Assembly: GCF_011043775.1 (NCBI RefSeq)
Contig: NZ_JAAKXY010000001.1
Location: 411,617 to 475,616 of the forward strand
Direction: 5' to 3'
DNA: 64,000 nucleotides
Origin: Natronolimnobius sp. AArcel1
GTDB lineage: Archaea > Halobacteriota > Halobacteria > Halobacteriales > Natrialbaceae
The position numbers were made by a program, and so were the translations under genes. Under the pieces are notes generated by a model that searched no databases, was not told where the DNA came from, and saw only the letters and a list, made by a program, of their open reading frames with translations. Shown here one piece after another: positions 1,234 to 8,707 of the stretch. Each line of letters starts with the position of its first letter. The first letter of the stretch is position 1.

Positions 1234-1878
1234 TTAGTCAGCGCGTGGAATCGCCGACTCGTCGACGTAGGCCAACTCTTCGGCCTTTTTCTGGACTTCG
1301 CCAGCGTTGGACTTCATCAGCGCCGTCGTATCCCAGACGCCCTCAACAAGGGCCTTGCGCTGGGCGTCGTCGACGGTCACGTCGATGGTCTCCCCGCCAT
1401 AGGTGACGGTTTCAGCCTCAATGTCGATCTCGAGGTCCTGATCGGGGTTTTGATCAACCCAGTCCTGCAGTTCCTGAACCGTCTCCGCGTCGGCGGTGAC
1501 GGTTGGAATCCCGAGTGCGAGGCAGTTGCCCGCGAAAATCTCGGCGAAGCTCTCGCCGATGATTGCATCGATGCCCCAGCGCATCAGCGCCTGCGGGGCG
1601 TGCTCGCGCGAGGAGCCACAGCCGAAGTTGCTGTTGACGACCATCACCGAGGAGTCTTGGAACTGTGCCTCGTTGAACGGGTGGTCTTTCTGATTGTCGT
1701 CATCGTCGAAGCGGACATCGAAGAAGGCGAACTCGCCCAGTCCGTCGAAGGTGACGACCTTCATAAAGCGCGCCGGGATGATCTGGTCGGTGTCGATGTC
1801 GTTGCCACGGATCGGGACGCCCGAGCCGGATACGTAGTCGACTTCTGGAATCTCGACTTCGTCGCCGTCGTCGGTCAT
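1234..1878 (-). CDS. leuD: 3-isopropylmalate dehydratase small subunit
   Basis: Small (swivel-domain) subunit of isopropylmalate isomerase, which converts 2- to 3-isopropylmalate in leucine synthesis. The 214 residues match the family. Visible hallmarks are [15 protein letters not shown] near the N-terminus and [15 protein letters not shown] in the substrate-binding loop. The ATG lies inside the end of leuC (4-nt ATGA overlap), so the two subunits should be translationally coupled. It is the last gene of the leu-ilv run in this window. Confidence 0.95.
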
Positions 1879-3296
1879 GCTGTCGTCACCTCCTTCAGTT
1901 CGCGCACGTCAGTAACCTCCCCAGTGATCGCCGCCGCGGCGACCATCTGCGGGTTCATCAGGACGGTGCGGCCGTCCTTGCTGCCCTGACGGCCAACGAA
2001 GTTCCGGTTCGAGGAGGAGGCACAGGCCTCGTCACCCTCGAGTTGGTCCTCGTTCATGCCGAGACACATCGAACAGCCGGCGTTTCGCCACTCGAAGCCG
2101 GCTTCCTCGAAGGTGTCTTTGAGCCCTTCTTGCTCGGCGGCCTCCTGAACGCGCTGACTGCCGGGAACGACCATCGCGCGAACGTCGTCGTCAACCTGAC
2201 GACCCTCGATGATCGCCGCTGCGCGTCGCAGATCAGGCAGTCGAGCGTTCGTACACGAGCCGAGGAAGGTAACGTCGATATCGTAGCCCTCCATCGTCTC
2301 GCCGGGCTCGACGCGCATGTGTTCCTGTGCGCGTCGTGCAGTATCTTGCTTATCCGCTGGCAGGTCTTCCGGCGCTGGAATCGGCTGCGTGATACCGATA
2401 CCCTGTCCTGGTGTGGTTCCCCAGGTGACGACGGGCTCGAGTTCGTTCGCGTCGATGTGGACGACGTCGTCGTATTCGGCGTCCTCGTCGCTCCGGATCG
2501 ACTCCCAGTACGGTTTGAGTTCGTCGAACTTCTCCGGATTCTCCTGGAAGTAATCAGTTTCTTCGAGCCAGTCGTAGGTGGTCTCGTCAGGGTTGACATA
2601 ACCCGCACGAGCGCCGCCCTCGATGGACATGTTACAGATCGACATTCGGCCTTCCATGCCGAGGTTCTCGATAGCCTCGCCGGCGTACTCGTAGACGTAG
2701 CCGACGCCGCCTTCAGTCCCGAGTCGGCGGATGATCTCTAAGATGATGTCTTTCGCTTCGACACCGTCGCCGAGTTCGCCGTCGACCTGGATTTTTCGTA
2801 CCTTCTGTTTCTCCATCGCAACGGTGCCCGTTGCGAGCACGTCCCGAATCTGGCTGGTTCCGATCCCGAACGCGAGTGCGCCGAATGCGCCGTGCGTGCT
2901 CGTGTGGGAGTCGCCACAGACAATCGTCTTGCCGGGCTGGGTCAGTCCCTGCTCCGGCCCGACGACGTGGACGATCCCCTGATCGCCGCTTTCTGGGTCC
3001 GAAAACTCGATACCCGCATCGCGGACGTTCTGCTCGAGTTCGGACATCATCTCTTCGGCGGCGTCCTCCTCGAAGGGGCGAGACTGGTCCGCCGTCGGGA
3101 TGATGTGATCGACCGTTGCGTGGGTCAGTTCGGGGAACGCAACCTCGAGGTCACGTTCCTCGAGCATGCCGAAGGCCTGTGGACTGGTGACCTCGTGGAT
3201 GAGGTGCAGGCCGATGAACAGCTGGTCCTGGCCGGTTGGCAGTTCGGTGACCTTGTGTTCGTCCCAGACCTTGTCGTAGAGCGTGCCCTCGCTCAT
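1875..3296 (-). CDS. leuC: 3-isopropylmalate dehydratase large subunit
   Basis: Catalytic [4Fe-4S] subunit of isopropylmalate isomerase, 473 residues, forming a heterodimer with LeuD. Aconitase-family signatures are clear: [33 protein letters not shown] (first cluster Cys) and the paired cysteines in [11 protein letters not shown] near the C-terminus. The start overlaps the stop of the upstream small gene by ATGA, and its stop overlaps leuD, which shows a tightly coupled operon. Confidence 0.96.
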
Positions 3297-3574: not shown

Positions 3575-4621
3575 TTAGTCGTCTGCTGGAACTTCCTGTG
3601 CCTCAGCGTCGGCGTCTTCGTCTGCCCACGCAAACAGCGCACGCAGTCGCTCGCCGACTTCTTCGATGTTGTGTTCCTGTTCAGCCTGTCGAAGCTGTCC
3701 GTAGCTTGGGCGACCAGCCTGGTTCTCGAGAATCCACTCACGCGTGAACTCGCCGTTCTGGACCTCCTCGAGGACCTCTTCCATGTTCTCGCGGACGGTG
3801 TCGTCGACGATTCGGTCGCCACGGGTGAGACCGCCGTATTCGGCGGTGTCAGAGACGGAGTTCCACATCTCCATGTTGCCGCCTTCGTACATCAGATCGA
3901 CGATCAGTTTGAGCTCGTTCAGGCACTCGAAGTAGGCGATTTCGGGCGAGTAGCCTGCGTCGACGAGCGTCTCGTAGCCGTGTTTGACGAGCGCGGTGAC
4001 GCCGCCACACAGCACAGCCTGCTCGCCGAAGAGGTCGGATTCGACTTCTTCCTGGAACGTCGTCTCGATGACGCCAGCGCGGGCACAGCCGATTGCCTTC
4101 GCGTATGCGAGGGCACGCTCTTGGGCGTTGCCGGTCGTGTCCTGATAGATCGCGAGCAGGCCGGGCGTCCCTTCGTCGTTCTCGTAGTTGCGCCGGACGA
4201 GGTGGCCCGGGCTCTTCGGTGCAACCATCGTCACGTCGACGTTTGCGGATGGCTCGATCTGGTCGTAGTGGATGTTCAGCCCGTGGGCGAACTGCAGCGT
4301 GTCGCCATCCTCGAGGTTTGGCTCGATGTCGTTCTCGTAGACCGTTGCCTGAACGGTGTCGGGAACGAGCACGGAGATGTAAGAGGCCTGCGAGACGGCT
4401 TCGGCTGGCGTCTCGACGGTGAGACCGTCTTCCTCGGCGGCCGAGCGCGAAGACGAACTCTCGCGCAGCCCGACGATCACGTCAACACCGCTCTCGTGGA
4501 GGTTCAGCGCGTGTGCGTGGCCCTGGCTCCCATAGCCCAGCACGGCTACGGTCTCGTCGTCAAGCGTCGATACGTCTGCGTCGTCGTTGTAATAGATCTC
4601 GGTGGTGAATTCGTCAGTCAT
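3575..4621 (-). CDS. ilvC: Ketol-acid reductoisomerase
   Basis: NAD(P)H-dependent isomeroreductase of valine and isoleucine synthesis, 348 residues, class I length. The Rossmann motif [14 protein letters not shown] lies near residue 30, followed by the C-terminal helical domain with the metal-site segment [16 protein letters not shown]. The start chosen is the ATG at 4621 ([14 protein letters not shown]), which fits the family; the frame is open further upstream but that part is the ilvN tail read in another frame. It overlaps the end of ilvN by 8 nt. The C-terminus is very acidic, as usual in halophiles. Confidence 0.95.
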
Positions 4622-5309
4622 CTGTTGTTGTCTGCGTGTATTGTTGGGTCTGCTGTTGGTTCGCCTTGTCGGCGGTCGATGCAGCGTCGTCTGTGCTCGG
4701 GGCTGCTGCCGTCTCGTCAGTGCCGCGTGCAAGCGCCGTCAGCCCGGTCCGGGAAATCTCCCGAATGCCGAACTGGCTGAACGTCTCGACCGCGGCATTG
4801 ATCTTCTGGCGCGCACCCGTAATCTCGAACGTCGCCGTTTCCGGACTCGAGTCGACCGTTTTCGCGTCGTACATGTCCGCAACGGCGTTCACCGCAGCGG
4901 GATCGTGCGCGTCGACCTTCACGAGCGCCAACTCCCGGCGCATCGCATCCGGTTCGAGTTCCCGAACCGAGATGACCGGCAGCAGCTTTCGGAGCTGCTT
5001 TTTGATCTGGTCGATCCCGGGGTCGGGCTCTTCGACGACGACCGTGATCCGCGCACGGTCGTCGTTTTTCGTGGGCCCCACTGTCAAACTCTCGATGTTG
5101 AACTGCCGCCTCGAGAACAGTCCCGAGGCTTCAGCGAGCACGCCGGGTTCGTGTTTGACGAGCGCCGAGATGACGGTTCGGCGGGGTTCGTGGGTCGCTT
5201 CGACTTCGGGGTCGATACGAATTCCTTGTTTGTTTCGCCGTCCCGCTGGCGTTGGGCGCTCTTCCGGTGGTGGACCCTCGAGGCCCTGCTGGTATGTTTC
5301 GTCAGTCAT
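4614..5309 (-). CDS. ilvN: Acetolactate synthase small (regulatory) subunit
   Basis: Regulatory partner of IlvB, 231 residues. An ACT domain begins near residue 45 ([24 protein letters not shown], the hallmark of the family), followed by the C-terminal ALS small-subunit domain ([11 protein letters not shown]... [10 protein letters not shown]). The product probably carries valine feedback control. The start at 5309 overlaps the ilvB stop (ATGA). It has an N-terminal basic/Pro-rich extension and a Gln/Thr-rich tail that look disordered. Confidence 0.93.
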
Positions 5310-7126
5310 AGCTGGTCCTCCGTCAGTGCGAACTGGCCATTGTCGCCGCCACTTGGCACCATCGGGTAGACGTTTGCCTGCGGATCGATGTGAACGTCGA
5401 TCACGGAGGGACCGTCGTAGGCGATGGCCTCCTGAATCGTGTCTGCGACATCGTCGTACTCGTCGATGCGATAGCCCTGTGCGCCGAAGGCTTCGGCGAG
5501 TTTGTCGAATTCGGGCATCCACCCGTAATCCGAGGCGGAGTGACGCCCGTCAAAGAAGGCGTCCTGCCACTGGCGGACCATCCCGATGTACTCGTTGTTG
5601 AGCACTGCAACGGTAATGTCGAGGTTCTCGCGGACCGCAACGGACAGGCCCTGTAACGTCATCAGGAACGAGCCGTCGCCGTCAATGCAGATGACCTCCT
5701 GATCGTCATCGGCTGCGACGCGTGCGCCGATTGCTGCAGGCAGTCCGTACCCCATCGTCCCGAGCCCGTGACTCGAGACCCACGTGCGTGGTTCGGTGTA
5801 GGTCCAGTACTGGCAGGCCCACATCTGGTGTTGGCCGACGCCAGTCGTGACGATGGCGTTGTCGCTTGTCGCCTCGTCAAGGGCTTCGACGACGAACTCC
5901 GGTTGAACCGGCCGGTCCTCGGGCGCGTCGTAGGCCATCGAGTAGTCAGATTTCCACTGCTGGCACTGGGCGCGCCACTTTGTCGCCTGTGGCGAAGAGT
6001 CGACGGCCGCTTGCAGCTGTTCGACGACGGTCGCGGCGTCGCCGATCAGTGGATAGTCCGCGTGGATGTTTTTCGAGATTTCGGCGGGATCGATGTCGAT
6101 GTGGATCAGTTCCGCATCAGGGGCGAACGTCTCGATGCCACCAGTTAGGCGGTCGTCGAATCGGGTTCCGATGCCGATCAGGGTGTCACAGTGCGTGATC
6201 GCCATGTTGGCGTAGCCGGTGCCGTGCATGCCGGCCATCTCCATCGAGAGTTCGTGGTCTTCGGGGAACGAGCCGAGGCCGGGCATCGTCGTGATGACCG
6301 GAATCTCGTGTTCGATGGCGAACTCGCGACAGACATCGCTCGCTTCGGCTTTGATGACGCCGCCACCGAGCAGCAAGGCCGGGCGGTCGGCGTTTTCGAT
6401 CCGTTCGGCTGCAGCCGCGACGATTTCCGGGTCGGCCTCCTCTTGGACCTCATAGGTGTCAGGCGTTTTCGGCGCGTCTGGCTCGACCTCGGTGTCAGAT
6501 TTCGTGATGTCTTTCGGCAGGTCGACCAGTGTTGGGCCTGGTCGTCCTTCGCTTGCGAGTGCGAACGCTTCGCTGACATCGGTTCCGACGCGGTCCGGAT
6601 CGGTCGAGAAGGTGTTATCCTTCGTCACTGGTGTTGTGACGCCTGTCGTATCCGTCTCTTGGAAGGCGTCGTTGCCGACGAAATCCGTCGCGACCTGGCC
6701 CGTCAGCGCGACCATTGGGTCAGAGTCCATGTCGGCGTCCGCGAGCCCAGTCACGAGGTTCGTCGCACCTGGCCCCGAGGTTGCCAGACAGATGCCCGGC
6801 TTCCCCGCGACGATGCCGTAGGCGTCGGCTGCGTGCGATGCGCCCTGTTCGTGGGCCATCGTGATGTGCGTGATGTCCGAATCGTACAGCGCGTCGTAGA
6901 CGGGCATGATCGCCCCGCCTTGCACGCCAAAGGCGTACTCGACGCCTGCGTTCTCGAGTGCACGAATCACGGACTCGGCACCGTTCGTGACCGGCTTCGG
7001 CGTCGACTCGCTGTCGGCTTCGGCCTCAGTCTCGGTCGCAGCGTCCGGTGCGGCGCTGTCTGTTATCTGGTCGTCTGCCTGTTCATCGTCGTCTGTCGGT
7101 GTGATTTTGGCTGCGCGTTCGCTCAT
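5306..7126 (-). CDS. ilvB: Acetolactate synthase large subunit
   Basis: Thiamine-diphosphate enzyme, 606 residues, making acetolactate or acetohydroxybutyrate. The N-terminal 50 residues are an acidic extension. Then come the pyrimidine-binding domain with the catalytic Glu (TMAHEQGASHAADAYG), the central FAD-type domain, and the C-terminal ThDP domain with GDGSFLM...NN. The ATG at 7126 is preceded by GGGGGAG, a good Shine-Dalgarno sequence, which settles the start. A 347-nt region separates it from leuA and contains its own promoter and candidate leader (see 7245-7370). Confidence 0.95.
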   Translation of the reverse strand: MSERAAKITPTDDDEQADDQITDSAAPDAATETEAEADSESTPKPVTNGAESVIRALENAGVEYAFGVQGGAIMPVYDALYDSDITHITMAHEQGASHAADAYGIVAGKPGICLATSGPGATNLVTGLADADMDSDPMVALTGQVATDFVGNDAFQETDTTGVTTPVTKDNTFSTDPDRVGTDVSEAFALASEGRPGPTLVDLPKDITKSDTEVEPDAPKTPDTYEVQEEADPEIVAAAAERIENADRPALLLGGGVIKAEASDVCREFAIEHEIPVITTMPGLGSFPEDHELSMEMAGMHGTGYANMAITHCDTLIGIGTRFDDRLTGGIETFAPDAELIHIDIDPAEISKNIHADYPLIGDAATVVEQLQAAVDSSPQATKWRAQCQQWKSDYSMAYDAPEDRPVQPEFVVEALDEATSDNAIVTTGVGQHQMWACQYWTYTEPRTWVSSHGLGTMGYGLPAAIGARVAADDDQEVICIDGDGSFLMTLQGLSVAVRENLDITVAVLNNEYIGMVRQWQDAFFDGRHSASDYGWMPEFDKLAEAFGAQGYRIDEYDDVADTIQEAIAYDGPSVIDVHIDPQANVYPMVPSGGDNGQFALTEDQL

Positions 7127-7244
7127 CAATTCTCCCCCGCCGCGATGTGGCGAGCGGTTGGTCCGGATGGCTGGTGTGATCTCATTGTGGGTGTGGCTGA
7201 TCGCTCTGAAAACGATACGCGTTCGGGTCCGGAACAACGAAGTA

Positions 7245-7337
7245 CTAGGGATGGGGCGAGGACGCCCCTACAATACGAATCGGCGCGAGCGCGCTGCTGT
7301 CGCCCAGATGAGCCGACAGGGAAGCGCGGTTCGTCAT
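7245..7337 (-). CDS. Candidate ilvB leader peptide (30 codons)
   Basis: An ATG at 7337, about 29 nt downstream of a TATA element, opens a 30-residue reading frame ending in TAG. The transcript would be almost leaderless, so this ATG should be used. The peptide holds three Leu, two Ile and one Val. The cluster I-R-I-V lies immediately before a strong GC hairpin that overlaps the last codons. Position and composition suggest a leader peptide controlling ilvB, which starts 118 nt further on. This is inference: no homologue was checked and the peptide is short. Confidence 0.4.
   Translation of the reverse strand: MTNRASLSAHLGDSSALAPIRIVGASSPHP
7253..7268 (-). promoter_or_regulatory. GC hairpin in the ilvB leader (possible attenuator)
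   Basis: Perfect 6-bp inverted repeat (GGGGCG / CGCCCC) with a 4-nt loop in the ilvB leader RNA. It overlaps the end of the 30-codon mini-ORF, just after its Ile-Arg-Ile-Val codons. No U-run follows, so it is not a classical intrinsic terminator. It could affect ribosome passage or access to downstream sequence. Confidence 0.45.
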
Positions 7338-7362
7338 TACTGACGATGTAGGACGCTCGAGC

Positions 7363-7370
7363 CATATAAT
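7363..7370 (-). promoter_or_regulatory. TATA element for the ilvB leader transcript
   Basis: ATTATATG on the minus strand, in the gap between leuA and ilvB. A start of transcription 25-27 nt downstream would fall within a few nt of the ATG at 7337. It implies that ilvBNC-leuCD can be transcribed independently of leuA. Confidence 0.55.
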
Positions 7371-7473
7371 CCTTGTGAGTCGAGCGGCCGATTCGCGCTG
7401 CCTGACTCGCATCGTTCGGTTGCGAGCGCCGTAGCCGATGCTCGCGAACGGAGGCAAACGGGGAAGACATCGC

Positions 7474-8707
7474 TCAGGCGCGCACCTCCTCTCCTTCCTG
7501 TTGGCGGTCAACGTCGGCTTCCTCGGCAAAGCGCTCTAAGTCACTGACTGTGACGCGGCGTTTTTCGGCTCCGTAGTCTTTGACGCGGCGAGTCACGGCG
7601 CGGACCTGGTCCTCGGTGGGGTCGAATCCACGCTCGTGGAGGCGCTCGCGCACGGAGTGCGTGCCGGTGTGTTTGCCCATGACGAGTTTCCGCTCGGCGC
7701 CGACCATTTCGGGGGTCATGACGCCGGGTTCGAAAGTGTCGGAGTTTTCGATGACGCCAGCGGCGTGGATTCCGCTTTCGTGGGAGAAGGCGTTATCGCC
7801 AACGACGGGCTTGTTGCCCGGCGTTTCGATGGTGCTTTTCTCCTCGACGATTTCCGACAGTTCCGTGATGCGGGTCGTGTCGATGCCCGTATCGGTCTGA
7901 TACAGGGATTCGACAGCCATCACGAACTCCTCGTAGGCGGCGTTGCCGGCCCGCTCGCCGATGGAGTTGACCGACACCTGTGCCTGATCTGCACCGGCTT
8001 CGATGCCAGCCAGCGCGTTGGCGGTGGCCAGCCCGAAGTCGTCGTGCGTGTGGACGTCGATCCGTGCGTCAGTGTGGGCACAGACCTTCTCGATCATGGC
8101 CCGGAACCGCGTCGGCGTGGCGACGCCACAGGTGTCGGGAATGTTGATCCAGTCGACGCCGGCCTCGGTGACCGCTTCGATCACGTCGATCAGGAACTGT
8201 TCGTCGGTTCGCGTCGCGTCCATCGGCGAGAACATGCAGGTCGTTCCCGTCTCGGTGATGCGTTCGACCGACTCGACTGCGCGCTGTACTACCTCCTCTC
8301 GAGTGGCGTGCATCGAATCTTCGATCTGGACATCGCTGGTACTGACGAACGTGTGTACCATCTCGACGCCGGAGTCCAGCGCCGCATCGATGTCCTTGTC
8401 GACGACGCGGGCTAACCCGCAGGTCGTCGTCTGTGTCGAAGACGCGATATCACGAACGGCCTCAAACTCCGCGTCCGAGTTGACGGGGAACCCTGCCTCG
8501 ATGACGTGGGTGCCCATCTCATCTAAGATCGCGGCGATCTGCCGTTTGTCGTCGTACGAGAACGAAGTCCCGGGCGACTGCTCACCATCCCGGAGGGTGG
8601 TATCGAAGACACGTGCTGACTCTATTTCGTCAGTGGAATCTAACGTGCCCTGGAAGAACTCGACCCCCCTGACTGGTGTCAGAGGACGAGGCGTCGTGTG
8701 AAGACAT
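7474..8707 (-). CDS. leuA: 2-isopropylmalate synthase / citramalate synthase family protein, start frame uncertain
   Basis: HMGL-like TIM-barrel enzyme; the location points to the first step of leucine synthesis. Visible motifs are FDTTLRDGEQSPG (metal/catalytic), HTHDDFGLATAN (metal His pair) and NSIGERAGNAAYEE. It ends about 400 residues after the first motif, so it lacks the long LeuA regulatory dimer domain. The start is anomalous. The conserved VEFFQGTL segment has no ATG, GTG or TTG just upstream in frame. The ATG at 8707, about 31 nt below a TATA box, is in another frame, separated from VEFFQGTL by a run of six G (minus strand, 8664-8669). With five G the frames would join. Alternatives are a CTG start at 8682 or an unlikely in-frame upstream ATG at 8835. 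Confidence 0.85.

Follow-up and report, generated by a model that had tools for sequence, protein, structure and literature searches.

The pheST attenuator of Escherichia coli has a Phe-rich leader ORF (the PheM leader peptide) before the genes for phenylalanyl-tRNA synthetase. In the ilv attenuators of the same organism and in the leader of Corynebacterium ilvBNC (the ilvB-II motif), a short uORF rich in Ile, Leu and Val lies 5' of ilvB, leader lengths are divisible by three, and a conserved hairpin is found at or after the uORF end (PMC10272879). For archaea, a 2021 paper stated that no attenuation or antitermination mechanism was known (PMC8448881). An initial annotation of the present DNA had called peptide-mediated attenuation little known in this domain. 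No later report of archaeal attenuation was found in the open-access literature, of which coverage was incomplete, and the novelty of an archaeal leader-peptide sensor is provisional. Structured leaders have been judged untypical of haloarchaea (Babski et al. 2016, PMC4983044).

A leader with the three features of the bacterial ilv leaders is found between leuA and ilvB on the minus strand of the window, the 64,000-nucleotide stretch of Natronolimnobius sp. AArcel1 DNA that was analysed. A TATA box, TTATAT (7364-7369), is located 32 nt 5' of the ATG (7337) of uORF1 (7245-7337), a predicted near-leaderless ORF of 30 codons, among them three for Leu, two for Ile and one for Val, that encodes the leader peptide MTNRASLSAHLGDSSALAPIRIVGASSPHP* and ends with TAG at 7245. 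The putative sensor codons ATT CGT ATT GTA (Ile-Arg-Ile-Val, 7280-7269), read in uORF1, directly adjoin the 5' side of hairpin B (GGGGCG-TCCT-CGCCCC, 7253-7268), whose 6-bp stem is perfect and overlaps the end of the ORF. The initial annotation had described each of these elements, as well as the absence of a U-run 3' of the hairpin, and its description is correct. The leader differs from the bacterial ilv attenuators in its archaeal promoter, its near-leaderless uORF with a stop codon that across haloarchaea is usually inside the hairpin, and a second uORF that overlaps the ilvB start; neither a strong U-run terminator nor antiterminator pairing was found. Comparison of 6900-7600 with Rfam, up to E 5, also gave nothing (T-box, ppGpp riboswitch and other catalogued ilvB leader RNAs included). 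Taken by itself the window copy is not beyond chance, and folding of the whole leader is no better than that of shuffled sequences (z -0.89); comparison with relatives takes the leader far beyond chance.

The genes behind this leader run in the same direction as far as the ilvC-like gene. The large and small subunits of acetolactate synthase, ilvB (5306-7126, minus strand) and ilvN (4614-5270, minus strand), score above the NCBIfam cut-offs (TIGR00118 for the former, TIGR00119 and NF008864 for the latter). Further downstream are ORFs that, by their sequence features, are probably ilvC-like (3575-4621, minus strand) and, after it, leuC-like (1875-3296) and leuD-like (1234-1878).

The gene ilvB was found in 149 related genomes, and upstream regions were collected from those and from 80 named loci. 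Usable haloarchaeal ilvB loci numbered 168, which reduced to 131 unique leaders. The initial annotation had proposed an alignment of relatives as the check on its reading, and uORF1, its Ile/Leu/Val codons and compensatory changes in the stem all proved to be conserved across haloarchaea. By script, uORF1 is present in 167 of the 168 loci, and inspection by eye showed a GTG start in the remaining one (L153). In 106 of the 131 unique leaders the TATA element begins precisely at -32 from the ATG. The distance from the TATA-preceded ATG to the GTA codon takes 15 values, though the two are in frame in 130 leaders and out of frame in one. A frame that stays constant over 15 ORF lengths places uORF1 well beyond chance.

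The codons at the end of uORF1 are the most constant part of it. Immediately before the Gly codon and hairpin B, Val is found in 130 of 131 leaders and Ile in one, and the codon before that is Ile in all 131, counts that are partly built in by the script pattern, which demanded an Ile codon, then Val or ATT, then GGGG. Nearly all loci fit this pattern, and the few missed by a stricter first version fit by eye. Two codons further back than the Ile of Ile-Val (codon -4), Ile, Leu or Val is found in 85% of the 131 leaders. Variant C-termini are still rich in branched-chain residues (e.g., LVIV, LAIV, IRIRIV, LLIVGIV, IIV and GIIGIIGIIGA). Ile is mostly encoded by ATT and Val mostly by GTA, which are probably non-preferred codons in these GC-rich genomes. 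The near invariance of IVGA or IVGV as a peptide, and almost as much as codons (GTA in 130/131), is what one would also expect if the C-terminal I-V-G-A arrested the ribosome as a nascent peptide in response to free valine or isoleucine and not to empty codons. We consider such arrest improbable: the residue after Gly follows changes in the stem (VGP in L205, L224 and L396, VGE in L399), the residues preceding Ile-Val vary yet remain rich in Ile, Leu and Val, and the pheS and trpS leaders described below have unrelated ends.

The rest of the peptide is under little constraint. The pN/pS ratio of the uORF1 body is 0.87 over all pairs and 0.77 over independent pairs, compared to 0.23 for ilvB. 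Since this is near-free evolution by the standard of ilvB, the ORF appears to matter through its translation, with the peptide not the product. That uORF1 codes for a small functional protein, as its conservation across haloarchaea might lead one to think, is extremely unlikely with a body ratio of about 0.8-0.9 and only the last codons fixed.

Hairpin B is conserved as an RNA structure. All five core pairs are intact in 168 of 170 ilvB and valS leaders. At position 4 the G-C pair has become C-G in three valS leaders (two genera of Natrialbaceae and a further family are represented), and at position 5 C-G has become U-A in four ilvB leaders. With compensatory changes at two positions, the RNA stem is maintained by selection. 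The loop is mostly 6 nt long, with lengths of 3, 4 and 7 also observed, and in most leaders the stop codon of uORF1 is in this loop or overlaps the stem. In 17 of the 131 ilvB leaders, the window included, the stop within the hairpin is altered and uORF1 runs on to a stop just beyond it. A regulatory protein that bound the inverted repeat GGGGC..GCCCC in DNA or RNA, with the ORF incidental, is a very improbable explanation for these observations. Variable loops and stop codons within the hairpin do not suit an operator, nor does an ATG-to-repeat frame held through many indels (130 to 1); the Ile, Leu and Val codons are mostly swapped for one another, and at pheS the same logic goes with a different hairpin. 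An operator would account for a repeat that is nearly invariant in ilvB leaders and common to ilvB and valS.

Two other hairpins occur in the window leader. Hairpin A, within the body of uORF1 (CGCGC..GCGCG, inner TGTCG..CGACA; 7290-7328, minus strand), was identified by RNAalifold and covariation, and it covaries in Natrialbaceae (91 leaders, Z up to 4.7). Hairpin C (CGCCACATCGCGGCG, at 7152-7138) is followed by the Shine-Dalgarno-like GGGGAG of ilvB, the two together occupying 7132-7152 of the minus strand.

The region 3' of hairpin B (7228-7252, minus strand) is a candidate termination zone or a ribosome-free spacer. In the average of the relatives, roughly 15 nt past the hairpin are G-poor and pyrimidine-rich; the window copy has a few G. 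Over the first 6 nt, G makes up only 1-3% (mean of about 131 leaders). A U-run terminator is not seen here, the longest T-run in the 40 nt 3' of hairpin B being only 2-3 in most leaders. Neither RNAalifold, covariation nor constrained folding gave a conserved helix that competes with hairpin B as in a terminator/antiterminator pair. Pairing of the Ile/Val-codon region with the ilvB start was proposed by RNAalifold with a probability of 0.4-0.5 and was rejected, as covariation gives it no support. In constrained folding of 119 leaders, a ribosome masked on the Val codon removed hairpin B in nearly all, and the starts of ilvB and uORF2 did not change consistently between the stalled and free states. 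With no competing helix and no consistent change at a start site, the output should act through hairpin B itself.

A ribosome-mediated attenuator that senses branched-chain aminoacyl-tRNA is probably the correct description of the ilvB leader. The sensor side is well supported, and the output would be either premature termination or a translation relay. We infer the transcript start, the stalling of the ribosome, the direction of the response and the output step as follows. The transcript would begin at or beside the ATG of uORF1, with immediate translation from the 5' end. In the last part of uORF1 the ribosome would decode the Ile and Val (often also Leu) codons, with hairpin B folding directly after them. 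When charged tRNAs are ample, it would pass these codons, stop in or just past hairpin B and depart, and hairpin B would re-form. The re-formed hairpin would then curtail expression, most likely because transcription ends prematurely in the pyrimidine tract with its near lack of G. When Ile or Val is scarce, the ribosome would wait on the sensor codons with its leading edge covering the 5' arm of hairpin B; with the hairpin blocked, RNA polymerase would run on into ilvBNC and the genes beyond, and uORF2, overlapping the ilvB ATG, would pass ribosomes to ilvB by termination-reinitiation. A ribosome halted inside hairpin B covers the hairpin too, so the timing must differ from that of the bacterial scheme.

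Work on other archaeal systems bears on the termination step. For example, in Haloferax 59% of transcripts terminated in vivo at a hairpin that lacked a strong T-stretch (PMC7237163), and FttA, an archaeal factor that binds nascent RNA rich in U, is a proposed overseer of the coupling of transcription and translation (PMC11616081). Together with the G-poor tract, these findings lead us to prefer an output in which transcription ends prematurely unless a stalled ribosome prevents it; its main rival is the relay through uORF2. Several observations count against an attenuator: no pairing in competition with hairpin B was found, stalling does not consistently alter access to the ilvB or uORF2 start, the T-runs 3' of hairpin B are short and fall below Haloferax T-stretch terminators in strength, ilvB is absent from a published table of Haloferax uORFs (PMC4983044), which omits valS as well, and several other genes for amino acid use have no such leader (see below).

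The second uORF, uORF2 (MRSHQPSGPTARHIAAGEN*, 7126-7185, minus strand), ends with a TGA that overlaps the ilvB ATG (TGATG). In 124 of the 131 leaders an ATG-initiated ORF has its stop codon on the ilvB start or no more than about 12 nt from it, nearly always as ATGA, which is the position expected of a termination-reinitiation pair. Most species begin ilvB with ATGAGC, so the TGA in the uORF2 frame comes free; the unusual part is the in-frame ATG and the lack of earlier stops. Spacer ATGs are in the uORF2 frame in 132 cases and in the other two frames in 10. A functional uORF2 peptide was considered and rejected, its pN/pS being near 1. A conserved box, GCGACCAGCAwTC, is common to the ilvB and valS spacers between hairpin B and uORF2, and the valS spacers have a very conserved GTTTCGACGGATGTATTGT in 25 of 30 loci.

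This arrangement could serve a purely translational relay, in which transcription is uncut and the position of the ribosome on uORF1 and hairpin B sets translation of uORF2 and hence of ilvB. The initial annotation, noting the missing U-run, had likewise allowed that any control may be translational. The overlap of the uORF2 stop with the ilvB ATG in most leaders, the frame bias of the spacer ATGs and the lack of a U-run behind hairpin B are all as such a relay would have them. In Haloferax, termination-reinitiation works over short distances only (PMC12548453), which suits the uORF2-ilvB overlap, and the end of uORF1, tens of nt 5' of uORF2, is too distant for simple reinitiation. Constrained folding, free versus stalled, also gave no consistent difference at the start of uORF2 or of ilvB for the relay to act on, and we regard the relay as rather unlikely.

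The same design is observed at valS, and related leaders are seen at pheS and a second trpS. In the source genome there is one further copy of the hairpin pattern, within MADTVAVETFAGPPTTVFVGAD* before valS (valine-tRNA ligase; C1:749236, L172/L204). The valS leader has Val codons and the same hairpin as the ilvB leader, and it was recovered in 39 of 50 loci; in Natrialbaceae the stop position is that of the ilvB leader and a uORF2-like ORF is also present. In one genome (L215, about 1290-1400) an insertion of about 80-90 bp with inverted-repeat ends (MITE-like) lies between GTA and GGGGC, a natural disruption of the valS leader element. The pheS leader ends in ...GFGFFFAR* in 21 of 30 loci under a strict filter, with a T-rich box at -29 to -31, and in several cases its stop codon is inside a hairpin whose sequence differs from hairpin B. 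It is like E. coli pheST in its Phe-rich leader ORF and unlike it in its domain of life, hairpin and termination machinery; homology is not expected. Leaders of WQWRW type (...WQWRW...) precede the second trpS in 12 of 15 loci. In these (L264-L278) the Trp codons are far from the stop, GGCCTAACCCG is conserved around the stop, and a pyrimidine-rich stretch with T-runs follows, a layout unlike that of ilvB and valS.

The trpS and pheS leaders have a counterpart in published data. In Haloferax volcanii, dRNA-seq mapped long 5' leaders ahead of a trpS and of pheS, with small ORFs (uORFs) of 23 and 26 codons (Babski et al. 2016, PMC4983044). Those authors called them small proteins or uORFs, not amino-acid sensors; the leaders seen here at such genes are rich in Trp or Phe. 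No such leader was found in the regions searched at ileS, archaeal leuS and hisG. For trpE, which may be operon-internal, the search was limited to the region 5' of the gene. No leader was seen at 20 ilvB loci that belong to other families in the phylum, nor at ilvB in four distant genomes assigned to the same order (families f9 and f11). Given these absences, the system looks like an innovation within haloarchaea.

The initial annotation had read the locus by the logic of bacterial ilv attenuation. That part of the reading which concerns sensing is well supported, with conserved sensor codons and hairpin and with recurrence at valS, pheS and the second trpS; the mutually exclusive structures of the bacterial scheme were not found. 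The ilvB leaders have an ORF in constant frame between promoter and operon, and cognate codons lie beside a hairpin there and at valS and pheS (at the second trpS, farther from the stop). Since alternative structures and a U-run terminator are absent, the ilvB leader is not filed as a member of the bacterial type, though it would work like one. A broader proposal, to which we give about equal chances of holding and failing, is a class-wide, independently evolved archaeal attenuation. In it, near-leaderless ORFs with a stop in a hairpin after cognate codons would sense charged tRNA for Ile and Val (ilvB), Val (valS), Phe (pheS) and Trp (second trpS). Their signal would be relayed with no antiterminator pairing involved, either by FttA/aCPSF1 factor-dependent termination or from uORF2 to the gene. 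If the leaders work as read, archaea too sense amino acids through the translating ribosome, and this sensing probably evolved apart from that of bacteria; it would depend on the coupling of transcription and translation, an open question in archaea. The leader is small and conserved, and since its class includes Haloferax volcanii, which is a good model for genetics, tests are immediately feasible.

A different arrangement is found at the neighbouring leuA (8707-8640, minus strand), where a TATA-preceded ATG (8707) is offset by +1 from the reading frame of the LeuA body. An ATG in the +1-offset frame is present 88-106 nt 5' of VFDTTL in all 71 unique haloarchaeal loci (the window and L091-L170), with TATA at -31 to -37 and GTT CTT C invariant in the ATG frame. 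In eight loci the LeuA frame has no ATG, GTG, TTG or CTG start. The sequences suggest that the gene for the first enzyme specific to leucine uses programmed +1 frameshifting, at a Leu codon. For Haloferax the problem of the leuA2 start codon, including slippage and a link to leucine, has already been raised (PMC8305020); the constancy of the +1 frame throughout the class adds new evidence.
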